Of a stretch of 64,000 bases of DNA, positions 48,565 to 55,345 are shown piece by piece (the first letter of the stretch is position 1; each line of letters begins with the position of its first letter). The DNA is taken from assembly GCF_024809975.1 (NCBI RefSeq), contig NZ_JANUDY010000001.1, positions 248,001-312,000 on the forward strand, given 5' to 3'. Under the pieces are notes generated by a model, which saw only the letters and a list, made by a program, of their open reading frames with translations, was not told the DNA's origin and made no database searches. Source of the stretch: Comamonas sp. BIGb0152. Lineage in GTDB: Bacteria > Pseudomonadota > Gammaproteobacteria > Burkholderiales > Burkholderiaceae_C. The position numbers and the translations under genes are program-made.

Positions 48565-49221
48565 CTAGGAATGATCCGCCATCCACCGTTGCAATTCGGC
48601 AACAGAATGCGCCACATACAGCGGCTTGAAAGGCCCAAACCCATCAAAGTGGTGGGCACCATAGCTCACACCCACACTGGCACAACCGGCATTCACCGCC
48701 ATTTGCAGATCATGGGTCGTGTCCCCCACCATCAGCAAGCGCTCGGGCGCCACATCCAGCTCGGCCATCAGCTCCTGCAGCATCAGCGGATGGGGCTTGC
48801 CCGCCGTCTCATCGGAGGTGCGCGTGGCGTGGAAGCGCCCCTTGAGCAAGGTCGTGTCCAGCACCCGGTCCAGCCCATTGCGGTTCTTGCCCGTGGCCAC
48901 CGCCAGCAGGTGGCCGCTGGCGGTCAGCTGGTCGAGCAGCTCCAACACCCCTTCAAACAAAGTCACCTGCTCCTGGCGCTTGAGAAAATGCAAGCGGTAG
49001 CGGTTGGTCAAGGCCACCATCTGCTCGTCCGGCACATCGGGCGCGGCATGGCGCAGTGCGCTTTGCAGGCTCATGCCAATTACGTACTTGGCATCGGCCA
49101 GGCTGGGCACCGTACCGCCCACATCCCGCACCGCATCCTGGATCGACAGCGCAATCGCCGCGGTCGAGTCAAACAAGGTGCCATCCCAGTCAAAGGCAAT
49201 CAAATCAAATTGGCGGGCCAT
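48565..49221 (-). CDS. gph: HAD family phosphatase (phosphoglycolate phosphatase-like)
   Basis: 218 residues. Motif I FDWDGTLFDSTAAI (nucleophile Asp), motif II AVATGKNRNGLD, motif III Lys in ETAGKPHPLML and motif IV VGDTTHDLQMAVNAG. Typical subclass IA HAD. Normally adjacent to rluC and rne in this lineage; here the truncated rne paralogue separates them. Substrate assignment to phosphoglycolate is by similarity only. Confidence 0.9.
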   Translation of the reverse strand: MARQFDLIAFDWDGTLFDSTAAIALSIQDAVRDVGGTVPSLADAKYVIGMSLQSALRHAAPDVPDEQMVALTNRYRLHFLKRQEQVTLFEGVLELLDQLTASGHLLAVATGKNRNGLDRVLDTTLLKGRFHATRTSDETAGKPHPLMLQELMAELDVAPERLLMVGDTTHDLQMAVNAGCASVGVSYGAHHFDGFGPFKPLYVAHSVAELQRWMADHS

Positions 49222-49714
49222 GGGGTGTTCTTTCTCTATCTGTCACAAAACTGATCTATCGGCCGCCGACGACAGCTGCACGGCCGCTGCCGAGCAAACA
49301 ACCACATCGGGCGATGTGTGGCCGTCCTAAACGGGCTCGGCCGGGTCGTTGGTTTAACGGCAGGCATTTTAGTTCAGGCACCAGCATCTACGCAGGCCAA
49401 CGGATTGACAGCAAGAGGCTGCGACTTCTCTCCAACAACAGGGCATGCATCCCCATGGCTGTCTCCAAGAGCCGACACAGGCCCACTTTATATGTACCTA
49501 AATGCAAGCTACCGGCAGCGGACGCCTGCCGAACGGCCAGGCTGATTGCAAGGACTTACGCCCTCCTGGCAATATGACAGGGCGCATAAATTTTTCGTTT
49601 CAATCCGGCCTCGCAGCGCCGGCTTATACAGCCAGAGCTTGTTTAGCATGGGAATTTGACAAACCAAGGGTCTGCCCGACAAAGCAGGCCTTCAATCCCC
49701 CCAAGTGGCGCACC
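49222..49714 (+). promoter_or_regulatory. Leader of the rne paralogue with a block conserved from the rne leader
   Basis: No gene is recognised. The block 49345-49400 aligns with 51668-51722 in front of rne: GTCGTTGGTTTAACGG against GTTATTGGTTAACCGG, GCATTTTAGTTCA against GCATTTTAATTCA, CACCAGCA against CACCAGTA. The sequence after the block is not clearly alignable. The TATAAT in front of the rne block has no good counterpart here. AAGTGGCGCACC precedes the ATG where rne has AAGGACGCGCATC, so the ribosome site is weaker. Confidence 0.6.
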
Positions 49715-50581
49715 ATGCAACGGATTTTGATCAATGCCACATACGCCGATGAGCGACGTCTCGCCATGGTGGATGGCCAACAACTGCTGGACTACGAGAT
49801 TGAAATAGAAGGCGAAGAGCAGCGCAAAGGCAATATTTACCAAGGCGTGGTCACACGCATCGACCGCATCTCGGGCGCCTGCATGGTGGATTACGGCGAT
49901 GGCCGCGACGGATTGCTGCCTCTCAAAGAAATCTCCATGCAGTGCCTCAGGCAAGGCTTTGCCCCTAGCCAGTTATACAACCCTCCAGCGATCAAGGAAG
50001 GTGACGAGCTGATGGTTCAGGTGGTGGAGGAAGAGTTCGAAACCCAAGGAGCCATCCTCTCCACGGCCATCGCGCTCATTGGTCGCTACCTGGTGTTGGT
50101 ACCCAGCGGCCACCATGGCAATGGCATATCACGATGCATCGAAGGCAATGCGCAGGCAGGGCTCAACGATCTGCTGAGCCAGCTGGCCTACCCCCAAGGC
50201 ATGGCGATCACTGCGCGGGACGCGGCCATGAGGCGCAGCGCCACCGAGCTGCAAAGAGACCTCAATTACCTGCTCAAGCTCTGGGACGCCATTGAAGGCG
50301 CCACCCAAAACAATGAAGGTGCTTATCTGATCTACCAGGAGTCAAACCTGGTGATTCGTACGATCCGCGACTATTTCCACGACGATGTCGCCGCTATCCT
50401 GATTGATAGCGAGGAACTCTATGAACAGGCCCGGCAGTTCATGTCGATTGTGATGCCCGAGTATGCGGGAAGGATCGAACACTACCAGGAAGACATGCCG
50501 CTGTTCGAGCACTTCCGGGTTGCCGATCAGATGGAAGCGGTGTACCCCCATTCCGGCCGACCCGCCCCCGCCCAACGCTGA
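49715..50581 (+). CDS. Truncated RNase E paralogue (S1 and 5'-sensor regions, no catalytic domain)
   Basis: 288 residues, aligning without gaps to residues 1-277 of the full RNase E at 52244 with somewhat more than half the residues identical by eye ([53 protein letters not shown]). Homology ends after MEAVY and the protein stops before the DNase I-like domain with the catalytic Asp residues. RNA-contact positions known from E. coli RNase E differ: F57 is Met, F67 is Leu, K112 is Gln and T170 is Asp, while R169 is kept. The frame is intact despite heavy divergence. Role unknown; a decoy, dimer partner or decaying duplicate are all possible. Confidence 0.85.
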   Translation: MQRILINATYADERRLAMVDGQQLLDYEIEIEGEEQRKGNIYQGVVTRIDRISGACMVDYGDGRDGLLPLKEISMQCLRQGFAPSQLYNPPAIKEGDELMVQVVEEEFETQGAILSTAIALIGRYLVLVPSGHHGNGISRCIEGNAQAGLNDLLSQLAYPQGMAITARDAAMRRSATELQRDLNYLLKLWDAIEGATQNNEGAYLIYQESNLVIRTIRDYFHDDVAAILIDSEELYEQARQFMSIVMPEYAGRIEHYQEDMPLFEHFRVADQMEAVYPHSGRPAPAQR

Positions 50582-50635
50582 GAAAAGGCGTCCCGAGCGC
50601 CATCCATCGCCTGGGCGCGTAAACAAGCACGTTGT

Positions 50636-51655
50636 TTATTCGGCCGCCGATGCTGCCGCCACAAAGTCCGCCAGCTCCGGCGGTAGCTCAGCCCCCAGCT
50701 CCACCCGCTCTGCCGTTTGCGGGTGGTTGAACTGCAGGCGCCAGGCGTGCAGGAACATGCGCTTGAGGCCCTGCTTGGCCAGGCGCTTGTTCAAATCAAA
50801 GTCGCCGTACTTCTCGTCACCGGCAATCGCATGGCCGCTGCTGGCCAGGTGTACGCGGATCTGGTGGGTGCGCCCGGTCTTGATGGTCACCTCCAGCAGG
50901 CTCAGCGCGGGCAGGCCCAATGGATGCTGGGCTGGGAACAGCTGCTGCACCTTCACCAGAGACACTGAACGCATGCCTTCGGGGTCGTCGGCCGTGGTGG
51001 CGCGCACCCGGCGCTCGCCATCGGGCAGCAGGTACTTGCGCAGCGGGGTGTCGATGACTTTCTTGTTGGCGGGCCACGCCCCCAGCACCAGGGCCAAGTA
51101 GGTCTTGCCGGTCTCCCGCTCGCGGAACTGGTTCTGCAGATGGGTCAGGGCCGAGCGTTTCTTGGCAACCAGCAAAATACCCGAGGTTTCGCGGTCCAGC
51201 CGGTGCACCAGCTCCAGAAAGCGGGCATCGGGGTGGGCGCGGCGCAGTTGCTCGATCACGCCAAAGCTCACTCCGGAGCCGCCATGCACGGCCACGCCAG
51301 CGGGCTTGTTGATCGCCAACATGACATCGTCATCCAACAACAAGGGAAACTCCCTAGCTGGCACCGCGCGCTCCGATTCCTCGGGCTTGGAGGACACGCG
51401 CACGGGCGGAATCCGGACCACATCGCCGGGCTGAACGCGAGCGTCCGCTGACGTGCGGCCCTTGTTGATACGGACTTCACCCTGGCGAATGATGCGGTAA
51501 ATGTGGGTCTTAGGCACGCCTTTGAGGTGGCGCATCAGAAAATTGTCCAGACGCTGTCCAGCGTCGTCGGGATGGACCTCCACCAGCCTTACAGCGACTG
51601 GGGCTGCTTGTGGACTGCGGGGCTCGCCCGGTTTGCCCCCTATAATATGTTTCAC
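50636..51655 (-). CDS. rluC: 23S rRNA pseudouridine synthase RluC
   Basis: 339 residues. N-terminal S4-like RNA-binding part (GQRLDNFLMRHLKGVPKTHI, VRINKGRTSADA), then the catalytic Asp in LELVHRLDRETSGILLVAKK and GRTHQIRVHLASSGHAIAGD and YGDFDLNKRLAKQGL. Modifies uridines 955, 2504 and 2580 (E. coli numbering). The GTG start overlaps the region of the rne promoter, so rluC and rne are divergently expressed from a shared region, as in most proteobacteria. Confidence 0.95.
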   Translation of the reverse strand: MKHIIGGKPGEPRSPQAAPVAVRLVEVHPDDAGQRLDNFLMRHLKGVPKTHIYRIIRQGEVRINKGRTSADARVQPGDVVRIPPVRVSSKPEESERAVPAREFPLLLDDDVMLAINKPAGVAVHGGSGVSFGVIEQLRRAHPDARFLELVHRLDRETSGILLVAKKRSALTHLQNQFRERETGKTYLALVLGAWPANKKVIDTPLRKYLLPDGERRVRATTADDPEGMRSVSLVKVQQLFPAQHPLGLPALSLLEVTIKTGRTHQIRVHLASSGHAIAGDEKYGDFDLNKRLAKQGLKRMFLHAWRLQFNHPQTAERVELGAELPPELADFVAAASAAE

Positions 51656-52243
51656 CTGCGCGATAGAGTTATTGGTTAACCGGTGAGCATTTTAATTCAC
51701 CCACCAGTACCCGCACAGGCCGGTCGATGTCTGGCTGATCACTTTGCCGCTCCACCTGCATTCCAAGAGATTGCGCAGGAGACGCCCAGTGAATCAGGCG
51801 GGCAGACACATTGAAACAACGAAAAAACAGATTTTTGGCGGCAGCTGTCGCAAAGGCCTGGCATCAGGCCCCGCCCAGCTGACCGTCTTCACACCAAACA
51901 TGTTGATTTTGTGGGCTTGGATGGCAACTCTCTGGCACAGCAGCAGCTGCGCGCCAGTGCGTCTTGCCGTGCCCACCGTGCGCATGTCCTCAGGGCAAAT
52001 TTCTCAGCCGGAGGCAGCTCAGCGCTGGCTGGCTGGTTATTTACATGCCCTCTCCCGCGTGCCTAGGTCCTTTGTGCTGACATAAGTATTACCAGCAAAC
52101 ATGACACGCTCTGTGAATTCTTTCGTTTCTCTGCGTCTGTCCCGGCATCTGTGGCTCCAGTAAGAGCCTGTTTATTGTTGGGATTGGAGACAGGTGCCTG
52201 ACTGACAAAGGCAGCCTGTCCCGCATTACGAAGGACGCGCATC
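51656..52243 (+). promoter_or_regulatory. Long 5' leader of rne
   Basis: A TATAAT at 51641-51646 would start transcription inside the rluC start, giving a leader of nearly 590 bases, consistent with the long autoregulatory rne leaders of other bacteria. It contains the palindrome GGTTAACC near 51675 and the block 51668-51722 shared with the paralogue leader. No good -35 box was found. No ORF is recognised in it. Confidence 0.55.
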
Positions 52244-55200
52244 ATGAAACGGATGCTGATCAACGCCACGCAAGCTGAAGAGCGCCGCCTCGCCATTGTT
52301 GATGGCCAAAAGCTGCTGGATTACGAGATCGAAATCGAAGGCCGCGAACAACGCAAAGGCAATATCTACAAAGCCGTTGTTACCCGGGTCGAGCCCTCCC
52401 TGGAAGCCTGCTTTGTCGACTACGGCGAAGACCGCCACGGCTTTCTGCCGTTCAAGGAAATCTCCAAACAATATTTCGCCGAAGGCGTCTCGCCCAGCCA
52501 GGCGCGCATCAACGATGTGATCCGCGAAGGCCAGGAGCTGATTGTCCAGGTCGAAAAAGAAGAACGTGGCAACAAGGGCGCAGCGCTCACCACCTTCATC
52601 TCGCTGGCTGGCCGCTATGTGGTGCTGATGCCCAACAACCCCCGGGGTGGTGGTGTCTCGCGCCGTATCGAAGGCGATGAGCGCGCCGAGCTCAAAGAAG
52701 CCATGGACCAGCTGGACTACCCCAAGGGCATGTCCATCATCGCGCGCACCGCCGGCATTGGTCGCAGCGCACCTGAGCTGCAATGGGATCTGAACTACCT
52801 GCTCAAGCTCTGGGGTGCCATCGATGGCGCTGCCAAGTCCGGCAAGGGCGCCTTCCTGATTTACCAGGAATCGAGCCTGGTGATCCGCGCGATCCGCGAC
52901 TATTTCCACAATGACATCGGCGACATCCTGATCGACACCGATGACATTTATGAACAAGCCCAGCAGTTCATGGCCCATGTGATGCCTGAGCACGCTGCCC
53001 GCGTCAAGCGCTACCGCGATGACGCGCCGCTGTTCAGCCGCTTCCAGATCGAGCACCAGATCGAGTCGGCCTACTCCCGCACCGTGACCCTGCCGTCCGG
53101 CGGCGCCATCGTGATCGACCACACCGAAGCGCTGGTCTCCATCGACGTGAACTCGGCCCGCGCCATCAAGGGCGGTGATATCGAAGAAACCGCCACCCGC
53201 ACCAACCTGGAAGCCGCTGACGAAGTCGCCCGCCAGATGCGTCTGCGCGACTTGGGCGGCCTGATCGTCATCGACTTCATCGACATGGAAGAGTCGAAGA
53301 ACCGCCGCGATGTGGAAAGCCGCCTGCGCGATGCGCTGCGCCAAGACCGCGCCCGCGTGCAGTTCGGCACCATCAGCAAGTTTGGCCTGATGGAGATGAG
53401 CCGCCAACGCCTCAAGCCTGCGCTGAGCGAAGGTGCCCACATCAACTGCCCACGCTGCGGCGGCTCGGGCCACATCCGTGATGCGGAAAGCTCGGCACTG
53501 CAGATCCTGCGCATCATCCAGGAAGAGTCGATGAAGGACAACACGGCAGCCGTCAACTGCCAGGTACCTGTCGAAGTCGCCTCCTTCCTGCTGAACGAAA
53601 AGCGTACCGAGATCCAGAAGATCGAGCTCAAGCAGCGCGTGTCCGTCACCATGGTGCCCAACAAGGCGCTGGAGACCCCGCACTACAAGCTCGAGCGCAT
53701 GAAGCACGACGACCCGCGCCTCGACTCGATGGAAGCGAGCTACAAGCTGGCCGATCCCGAAGAAGAGAGCCTGGGCTTTACCCGCCGCTCGCAAGAGCCG
53801 ACCAACAAGCAAACGCCCGTCATCAAGGGTGTGCTGCCCGATGCTCCGGCACCGATTGCCGAGCCGCGCCCCGCACCGGCTGCGCGCCCCGCCAATGCCC
53901 AGCCAGCGCAGAATGGCAAGCCTGCAGGTACCCCAGCAGCCGCCGCGCCCGCCGCAGCCGCTGCTGCCGTACCGCAAAAGGGCTTCTTCGCCTGGCTCAA
54001 GCGCTTCTTCGGCATGGCCCCTGAGCCCGCACCAGCACCCGTGCCAGCAGCCGCTGCCGCTCCCGCCGGCGACGCCCGCCGCGAAAACCGTGACGGCCGC
54101 AACGGCGGCCGTGGTGGCCGTGGTGAGCGCACCGAGCGTGGCGACCGTGGTGACCGCAAGGACGGCAACCGTCCCGCCCGTGGCGAGCGCGCCGAAGGCG
54201 AACGCGGTGACCGCAATGGCCGTGGCAACAATGCCGCTGCCGAAGGCAGCCGCAGCCCCCGTGGTGGTGACCAGGAAGGCCGTAACCGCCGTGGTGAGCG
54301 CGGTGAACGTGGCGACCGCCAGGACCGCAGCCGCCGCGACGAAGCGCCGCTGAACCCGCAAGCGGGCGACAACGCTGTTGCCAATGGCGAGCGCCAAGAA
54401 CGCGCACCCCGCCCCGAGCGCGCTCCCCGCGAGCCGCGTGAAGGCCGCCGCGACCGTGGTGGTGAGCGTGGTGAGCGCCAAGAGCGCCGCAACCCCACCG
54501 ATGAAAGCGCCCAGCCGCTGAACGCCGTGGCAGCTGCGCCCATCAACGCCGATGCGGTGATCGCGTCCCTGCCATCGCTGGACCTGGATACGGGCAACCA
54601 GACCGAAGCCGGCACCGATGCGGACAACGCGACGCCCGAGCGCCGCGAACGCCGCTCGCGTGACCGCTATGGCCGCGACCGCCGCAACCGTGGTGACCGT
54701 GAGCGCACGGGTCGTGACGAGCAGGCAGAAGGCGAATCCGCTGCAGCTGATTCGGGCTTTGCCCCGGATGCTGTGCCTGCCGTGCCGCAAGACGCAGACG
54801 ACGCACCACGCCGCAGCTACTTCAATGCCGCATCCGCGCCTGCGCCGGTTGCAGCACCGGTAGTGGCCGCCGTGGCTGACGCAGCGCCTGTGGTGCCAGC
54901 ACCGGTGCAGGCCCCTGTGGCCCCTAGCGCCCCGGTCAGCGTTGCCGCAGACAGCCGCCACGCCGAGCAGGCACCCCTGGCCGCAGCGGTTGCTGCACCA
55001 GTGGCAGCCCCGGTCGCCGCGCCTGCACCTGTGGCAGCGCCTGTCCCTGCCGCTGCTCCAGCAGTAGCAGCGCCCGTGCAAGCAGGCCTGCCGGTCATCG
55101 CCAGCTACGCGCTGCCATTGGATGCCCTGCACCAGATCGCCAGCACCGCTGGTCTGCAATGGGTCAACTCCGATGCCGACAAGATCGCTGCCGTGCAAGC

Positions 55201-55345
55201 CGCCATCGCGGCCGAGCCCAAGCCCGTGCATGTGCCGCGTGAGCGCCAGCCGGTGGTGCAGATCGACGAAGGCCCGCTGGTCCTCGTCGAGACCCGCAAG
55301 GATCTGACCGACCTGGTCCTGCCGTTTGAGCGCGAAACCGCTTAA
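52244..55345 (+). CDS. rne: Ribonuclease E
   Basis: 1033 residues. S1 domain at about 35-125 with F57, F67 and K111; 5'-sensor R168/T169 ([12 protein letters not shown]); catalytic Asp in VSIDVNSAR (301) and VIDFIDM (344); zinc-link CPRCGGSG near 400. From about residue 510 the tail is disordered: RGER/GDR-rich arginine repeats (about 610-740), then Ala/Pro repeats (about 850-950), ending [20 protein letters not shown], a short conserved tail. Main endonuclease for mRNA decay and rRNA processing; the tail is expected to bind RNA and degradosome partners. AAGGA precedes the ATG. Confidence 0.98.

Follow-up and report, generated by a model that had tools for sequence, protein, structure and literature searches.

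A partial tandem duplication of rne, the gene of RNase E, has left a truncated second copy in Comamonas, with relics of the event still beside it; the copy has lost the nuclease half of the enzyme, has one origin and is under purifying selection in three lineages. It lies in the genome of Comamonas sp. BIGb0152, labelled G000 here (other G numbers denote relatives), within a stretch of 64,000 nucleotides, which is the window analysed in this study. In the best reading, selection has kept the gene for a fragment of RNase E without catalytic activity, which would modulate RNase E, by a mechanism that we infer, through binding to RNA or to one of the partners of the enzyme.

The paralogue spans 49715..50581 on the forward strand, as had been predicted, and its 288-aa product is 58% identical to the N-terminus of the product of rne, its parent, which encodes full-length RNase E on the same strand (52244..55345; 1033 aa, by Pfam and alignment) and begins 1.7 kb downstream. 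The similarity is far above chance (E = 4.9e-105). Alignment to residues 1-279 of this Rne is gap-free at 57-58% identity, and the Pfam matches are S1 (37.9 bits) and RNase_E_G (118.7 bits), the latter over only profile positions 2-157 of 270. RNase_E_G_Thio has no Pfam match in the paralogue, whereas the full Rne has RNase_E_G_Thio together with a complete RNase_E_G. In a six-row alignment of the stretch, rne-like DNA similarity fades past about codon 277, and the end of the rluC gene lies 54 nt past the stop codon of the paralogue. Because of this Pfam coverage and the loss of similarity near codon 277, we regard the protein as the RNase H-like/S1/5'-sensor body of RNase E, ending where the nuclease domain begins; both alignment and Pfam agree with the original prediction of a gap-free match to Rne residues 1-277 that stops before the catalytic domain. 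All three subdomains are present, with boundaries that we take to be about 1-35 plus 214-277 (RNase H-like), 36-117 (S1) and 118-213 (5' sensor). The DNase I-like domain with D303 and D346 is absent, as the ORF stops at residue 288, and the Zn-link cysteines and the small domain (dimer/tetramer) are also absent, as the ORF is too short and RNase_E_G_Thio is missing. Judged from its sequence, the paralogue is a member of the RNase E family by descent and, without the catalytic domain, is not an RNase E by its function features.

An AlphaFold2 model of the paralogue from 35 aligned sequences reached a mean pLDDT of 74.9 and a pTM of 0.67, which is only moderate, and the remaining four models had pLDDT values of 45-59. 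When the best model was used in a structure search, the best match was E. coli RNase E (TMq up to 0.86), and several other E. coli RNase E chains gave a TMq of only about 0.5. The product is predicted to adopt the fold of the RNase E body (RNase H, S1 and 5' sensor), and it would be unable to cut and would act by binding. It is very improbable that a cryptic active site in the domains it has kept still makes it an RNase. RNase W is indeed an RNase that has an RNase E-like S1/5'-sensor and no RNase E nuclease, but its activity sits in a separate DUF402 (excerpt of PMC11602121); this catalytic domain of RNase W / FAU-1 is absent from the paralogue, in which Pfam finds S1 and a partial RNase_E_G only.

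The paralogue is located between a HAD-family hydrolase gene ("gph", 48565..49221, reverse strand; HAD_2 114 bits) and, convergent with it, a rluC-like gene for an RluA-family pseudouridine synthase of 339 aa (50636..51655, reverse strand; RluA subfamily above cut-off). Both names are given by resemblance: the gph product falls below all phosphoglycolate phosphatase equivalog cut-offs shown, and the best model for the rluC product, RluC, scores 340.6 bits, below the cut-off of 378. Of 53 genomes of the genus, seven do not belong to the 90% complete / 5% contaminated class; a distinct short copy occurs in three of the 53, namely G000, G023 and G019. All three copies are intact (284-288 codons) and lie between gph and rluC, the site at which orthologues had been proposed to be sought; a TGA flagged in the G019 copy is its own stop after codon 284. 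In the close relatives G040, G015 and G021 the gph-rluC site is empty, and the two genes, which the insert 49222-50635 separates here, stand 21 nt apart on one strand. The paralogue is absent in three of the six species of this clade and is also missing at the locus in five further species compared. A rne gene or a more distant gene, presumably RNase G, was matched in all 53 genus genomes; G016 had no rne match, and short rne frames in G033 and G034 lie near contig ends. The second match in most genus genomes, about 30% identical, was taken for RNase G because of its distance and the length of its frame, and the presumed RNase G of the window's genome is on G000:C2 with an open frame of 724 codons.

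At the family level (399 genomes, three-copy profile, E <= 1e-70), no further such copy was found among the matches listed, in a search that scored at most six candidates per genome and that more diverged copies would escape. Two matches at this threshold were obtained only in G000 and G379 among the matches listed, and 16 genomes had none. In G379, which belongs to a different genus of this family, RNase E N-terminal sequence is strongly matched at L173 and L174, where the open frames have 502 and 1017 codons and the second match begins only at profile position 87; with frames of such length, neither looks like an equivalent of the paralogue. In a phylum sample of 249 genomes, the sole other frame below 400 codons among the matches listed was that of G588 (369 codons), whose match starts 119 bases from a contig end. 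A GTDB contig scan of 469 relatives, from which the best 80 were kept, gave G023 and 79 others at 42-47% identity, mostly Gammaproteobacteria by title and taken as RNase E; the scan returned neither G019 nor the window's genome. For plasmid and phage collections (40 of 62 plasmid records listed), the named matches were rne, rng, Rne/Rng ribonuclease and ribonuclease E/G, and the other named ones were an S1 domain protein or a hypothetical protein adjoining an rne/rng-type gene. A Xanthomonas plasmid record (L152) has an RNase E-like gene annotated as overlapping pieces.

Traces of the duplication are found in front of the ORF. The insert begins with the old gph-rluC junction, a relic of the lost first rluC copy (49222..49269, unstranded), followed by a copy of the rluC-proximal end (51672-51721) of the rluC-rne spacer (49349..49398, unstranded; repeat D2, 74% over 50 nt) and by the paralogue leader (49571..49691, forward strand), which is homologous to the rne leader at 52098-52217 by local alignment (repeats D1 and D12); this 121-nt match scored 26.9, compared with a maximum of 19.5 in 200 shuffles. 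The junction relic matches the empty site of G040 over 48 nt with a score of 76 (maximum of 200 shuffles, 23) and the empty sites of G015 and G021 with scores of 71 and 69, and its final 27 nt represent the former 3' end of rluC with the stop codon. The same relic is held by G023 over 43 nt (score 61, shuffle maximum 24). G019 is without it (score 14, shuffle maximum 24) and has an 83-nt relic of mid-rluC (score 61, shuffle maximum 28), which directly precedes the start of its copy of the rluC-rne spacer. When a rluC relic was sought directly in G000 and G023, the score of 22 stayed below the shuffle maximum of 27 and was not significant, and the comparison with the empty site gave a significant rluC 3'-end relic in both. 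In addition, the remaining rluC has 339 codons and a different C-terminus in the three carriers and 343 codons in the three empty-site relatives, which fits a duplication junction falling in the rluC 3' end. The order of spacer copy, leader and rluC relics argues for a tandem duplication with later loss of the first rluC: a partial duplication of rluC, spacer and rne codons 1-277 in a Comamonas ancestor would have created a second, truncated rne that has a leader of its own, and the first rluC copy would have been lost afterwards. A single origin of the copies is indicated by 18 residues that are common to all three and occur in none of the 11 genus RNase E sequences aligned.

The history of the gene conflicts with that of the species. 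Species trees join G000 and G019 with values of 90 (gyrB), 87 (gph), 99 (rluC), 100 (rne) and 100 (gyrB, gph and rluC together), and G023 is grouped with G015 (96) and G021 (77). The paralogue tree instead joins G000 and G023, with 15 shared changes versus 2 and 3 for the other pairings, and AU p was 2.7e-5 for the two alternative topologies, including the one in which the G000 and G019 copies are joined. The paralogue spacer agrees with the gene tree, as G000 and G023 align end to end and G019 aligns only partly. Given this conflict and the three empty-site relatives, either exchange between species or old lineages with repeated losses would be needed. The topology expected if the G019 copy had been converted by the rne of G019, or had arisen from it independently, was rejected as well (AU p 0.00024). 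The patchy presence, the conflict of trees and the fast divergence would all suit an accessory gene passing between Comamonas species with a new ligand or pathway unconnected to RNase E. This is rather unlikely, because the surface residues that are retained are those of RNase E and the rne-derived leader is kept.

The paralogue protein is under purifying selection. In a codon model fitted for this analysis on a fixed tree of the three copies and five rne sequences, omega was 0.259 on the paralogue branches (2dlnL 110.0 versus omega 1), with terminal-branch values of 0.195 in G000 (10.6), 0.264 in G023 (17.6) and 0.311 in G019 (10.7), and 0.275 on the inner paralogue branch (6.9). NG86 gave omega values of 0.31, 0.36 and 0.33 (bootstrap ranges 0.22-0.43, 0.25-0.53 and 0.22-0.46). 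The three copies have no internal stop and a single in-frame codon gap before the tail; in a neutral simulation, 0.15-0.65% of runs were stop-free at the three larger divergences and 7.9% at a divergence of 0.10. An omega well below 1 and three intact copies out of three speak against a decaying pseudogene. The original prediction, which saw no decay over 288 codons and the RNase H-like part as best kept, was borne out in both respects: a dN/dS near 1 and frameshifted orthologues were looked for and neither was found, and omega was 0.168 in the RNase H-like part, 0.299 in the 5' sensor and 0.362 in S1 (2dlnL 20.2, 2 df, with the presumed boundaries given above). Being preserved as a protein by selection, the paralogue probably has a function of its own.

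Its evolution is nevertheless very fast, as the copies are 54-70% identical between species, compared with 99% for rne residues 1-280. The dS of the copies (0.61-1.08) is also higher than that of the flanking genes (0.36-0.51), which implies that the copies either predate the splitting of the species or are less constrained by codon bias. The ribosome-binding sequence scores -2.5 (weak) in G000 and +1.9 (none) in G023, compared with -5.4 in front of rne and -7.2 in front of the copy in G019, and this speaks for low expression in G000 and G023. Such a weak or missing signal in two of the three copies also favours the explanation that the ORF is a passenger heading to decay and that the insert persists because the spacer copy within it supplies a promoter for gph. 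With the insert, rluC and gph are no longer adjacent, and the spacer that lies upstream of rluC is present a second time next to gph, which may be driven here by this duplicated region; a promoter scan found one site versus 0.8 expected. We consider this by-product explanation quite unlikely, as omega stays under 1 on each of the three terminal branches, which largely refutes passenger status, and the frames have stayed open. The region 49150-52300 has ten terminator-like sites, some overlapping, versus 2.6 (sd 1.8) in shuffles.

For the RNA-contact residues, E. coli numbering was taken from alignment to 2vrt chain A. The alignment confirmed that the window's copy has Met57, Leu67, Gln111, Arg168 and Asp169 and that the full-length Rne is unchanged, as had been claimed; RNase E has F, F, K, R and T at these five positions in all 11 genus sequences aligned. 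One of them corresponds to K112 of the S1 domain, which presumably contacts RNA. F57 and F67 are named as RNA-contact residues in excerpts of the RNase E papers cited here, and R169 and T170 bind the 5'-phosphate in RNase E (excerpt of PMC2631609). Taking the copies of G000, G023 and G019 in this order, the F57 position has Met, Met and Phe, the F67 position Leu, Met and Leu, the T170 position (local T169) Asp, His and Ser, and the R142 position Cys, Tyr and Arg; K112 (local K111) is replaced by Gln, and R169 is retained, in all three. The earlier claim of altered S1 residues is thus upheld for K112, which is Gln in every copy, and for F67, which no copy has kept, but not for F57, which is still Phe in G019. 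The proposal that an acid at the T170 position repels a 5'-monophosphate fails as a general statement, since Asp occurs in G000 only and the general change is the loss of Thr; the Ser of G019 might still serve the 5'-phosphate pocket. On the RNase H side, the groove residues for structured RNA (R3, Q22, H268, Y269 and Q270; excerpts of PMC6202311 and PMC9841416) read R, Q, H, F and R/Q/Q in the copies. The Phe at Y269 is also the parent's residue, the Arg for Q270 is in the window's own copy, and the H268 position is His in the copies and Arg in the parent RNase E.

At a probability of roughly 40%, our leading reading is that the paralogue, derived from the partial rne duplication, competes with RNase E or modulates it on certain structured RNAs and does not cut. 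With the S1 aromatic/lysine site and the 5'-monophosphate pocket altered and the RNase H-side surface largely kept, structured RNA or an RNase E partner would be bound without cleavage, and RNase E would be competed with or tuned; possible targets include the paralogue's own leader and the rne leader. Precedents exist in RNase W, where an RNase E-like S1/5'-sensor body serves as a regulatory part (excerpt of PMC11602121), and in RebA, which regulates RNase E through the 5' sensor (excerpt of PMC10783494). Several points weigh against this competitor reading. First, the groove of RNase E is completed by the small domain of the partner protomer (excerpt of PMC6202311), and this domain is missing in the paralogue. 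Second, in E. coli single groove mutations had no significant effect and a combination of eight had the greatest (excerpt of PMC6202311). In addition, the RNase H part is perhaps best kept merely as the fold core, the ribosome-binding sequence is poor in G000 and G023, the evolution is very fast, half of the clade lives without the gene, and the structure model is only moderate.

The rne leader (52084-52243, 160 nt) is identical in G000, G023, G040, G015 and G021, and that of G019 has a single base difference. It has two predicted hairpins, one of them terminator-like (52153-52168), and in G005, G043 and G049 different hairpins replace this pair. On this basis, the rne leader is a candidate element for RNase E self-control in the genus; a literature search on autoregulation through the leader gave no paper. 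The paralogue leaders hold the rne leader hairpins in weaker forms, and because three such sequences are too few, no conserved hairpin element is claimed for them.

RNA-contact residues that changed while the fold was kept would also suit a product that binds protein, either as an S1/5'-sensor mimic titrating an RNase E regulator or by docking on RNase E and locking the enzyme. The dimer- and tetramer-forming parts of RNase E lie C-terminal of the paralogue's end. Because these parts are beyond the truncation, the earlier suggestion of assembly with RNase E is weakened, and their loss counts against this protein-binding explanation too. We consider it unlikely, although RebA, a cyanobacterial regulator, binds the RNase E 5' sensor (excerpt of PMC10783494).

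In conclusion, the competitor reading can be extended to a dedicated nuclease-dead RNase E antagonist/modulator, a 'pseudo-RNase E', that was born from rne by tandem duplication together with a copy of the rne leader, selected and exchanged between Comamonas species; in this full form the proposal is tentative and somewhat doubtful. Open-licence PubMed Central texts gave no description of a truncated, inactive or duplicated RNase E paralogue or of a Comamonas rne duplication, and as far as the literature searched shows, a 'pseudo-RNase E' would be the first of its kind. A selected fragment with the recognition surfaces minus the nuclease would show a regulator evolving from the enzyme it controls, and it would be a ready-made tool in which structured-RNA recognition is set apart from 5'-end sensing and cutting.

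Compared with known systems, the paralogue is closest to RNase E, with which it shares 58% identity over residues 1-279, the same three N-terminal parts and a partial copy of the leader, and from which it differs by the lack of the DNase I-like domain, Zn-link, small domain and scaffold tail and by the changes at K112, F67 and T170. RraA and RraB are protein regulators of RNase E, and the paralogue would resemble them and RebA in modulating RNase E, which here is a proposed effect only; to our knowledge, none of the three is an RNase E duplicate. RNase G is an RNase E paralogue too (excerpts of PMC4191395 and PMC9841416), but the presumed RNase G of the genus is the second, far more distant match noted above. 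RNase W / FAU-1, the archaeal RNase G/E-like-DUF402 protein, likewise has S1 and a 5' sensor without the RNase E nuclease, and in RNase W this RNase E-like body is described as a regulatory part; in contrast to the paralogue, RNase W has retained the 5'-phosphate pocket and possesses a catalytic DUF402 domain (excerpt of PMC11602121), and the paralogue model matches it only distantly (Foldseek E 2.8e-7 and 2.9e-7).
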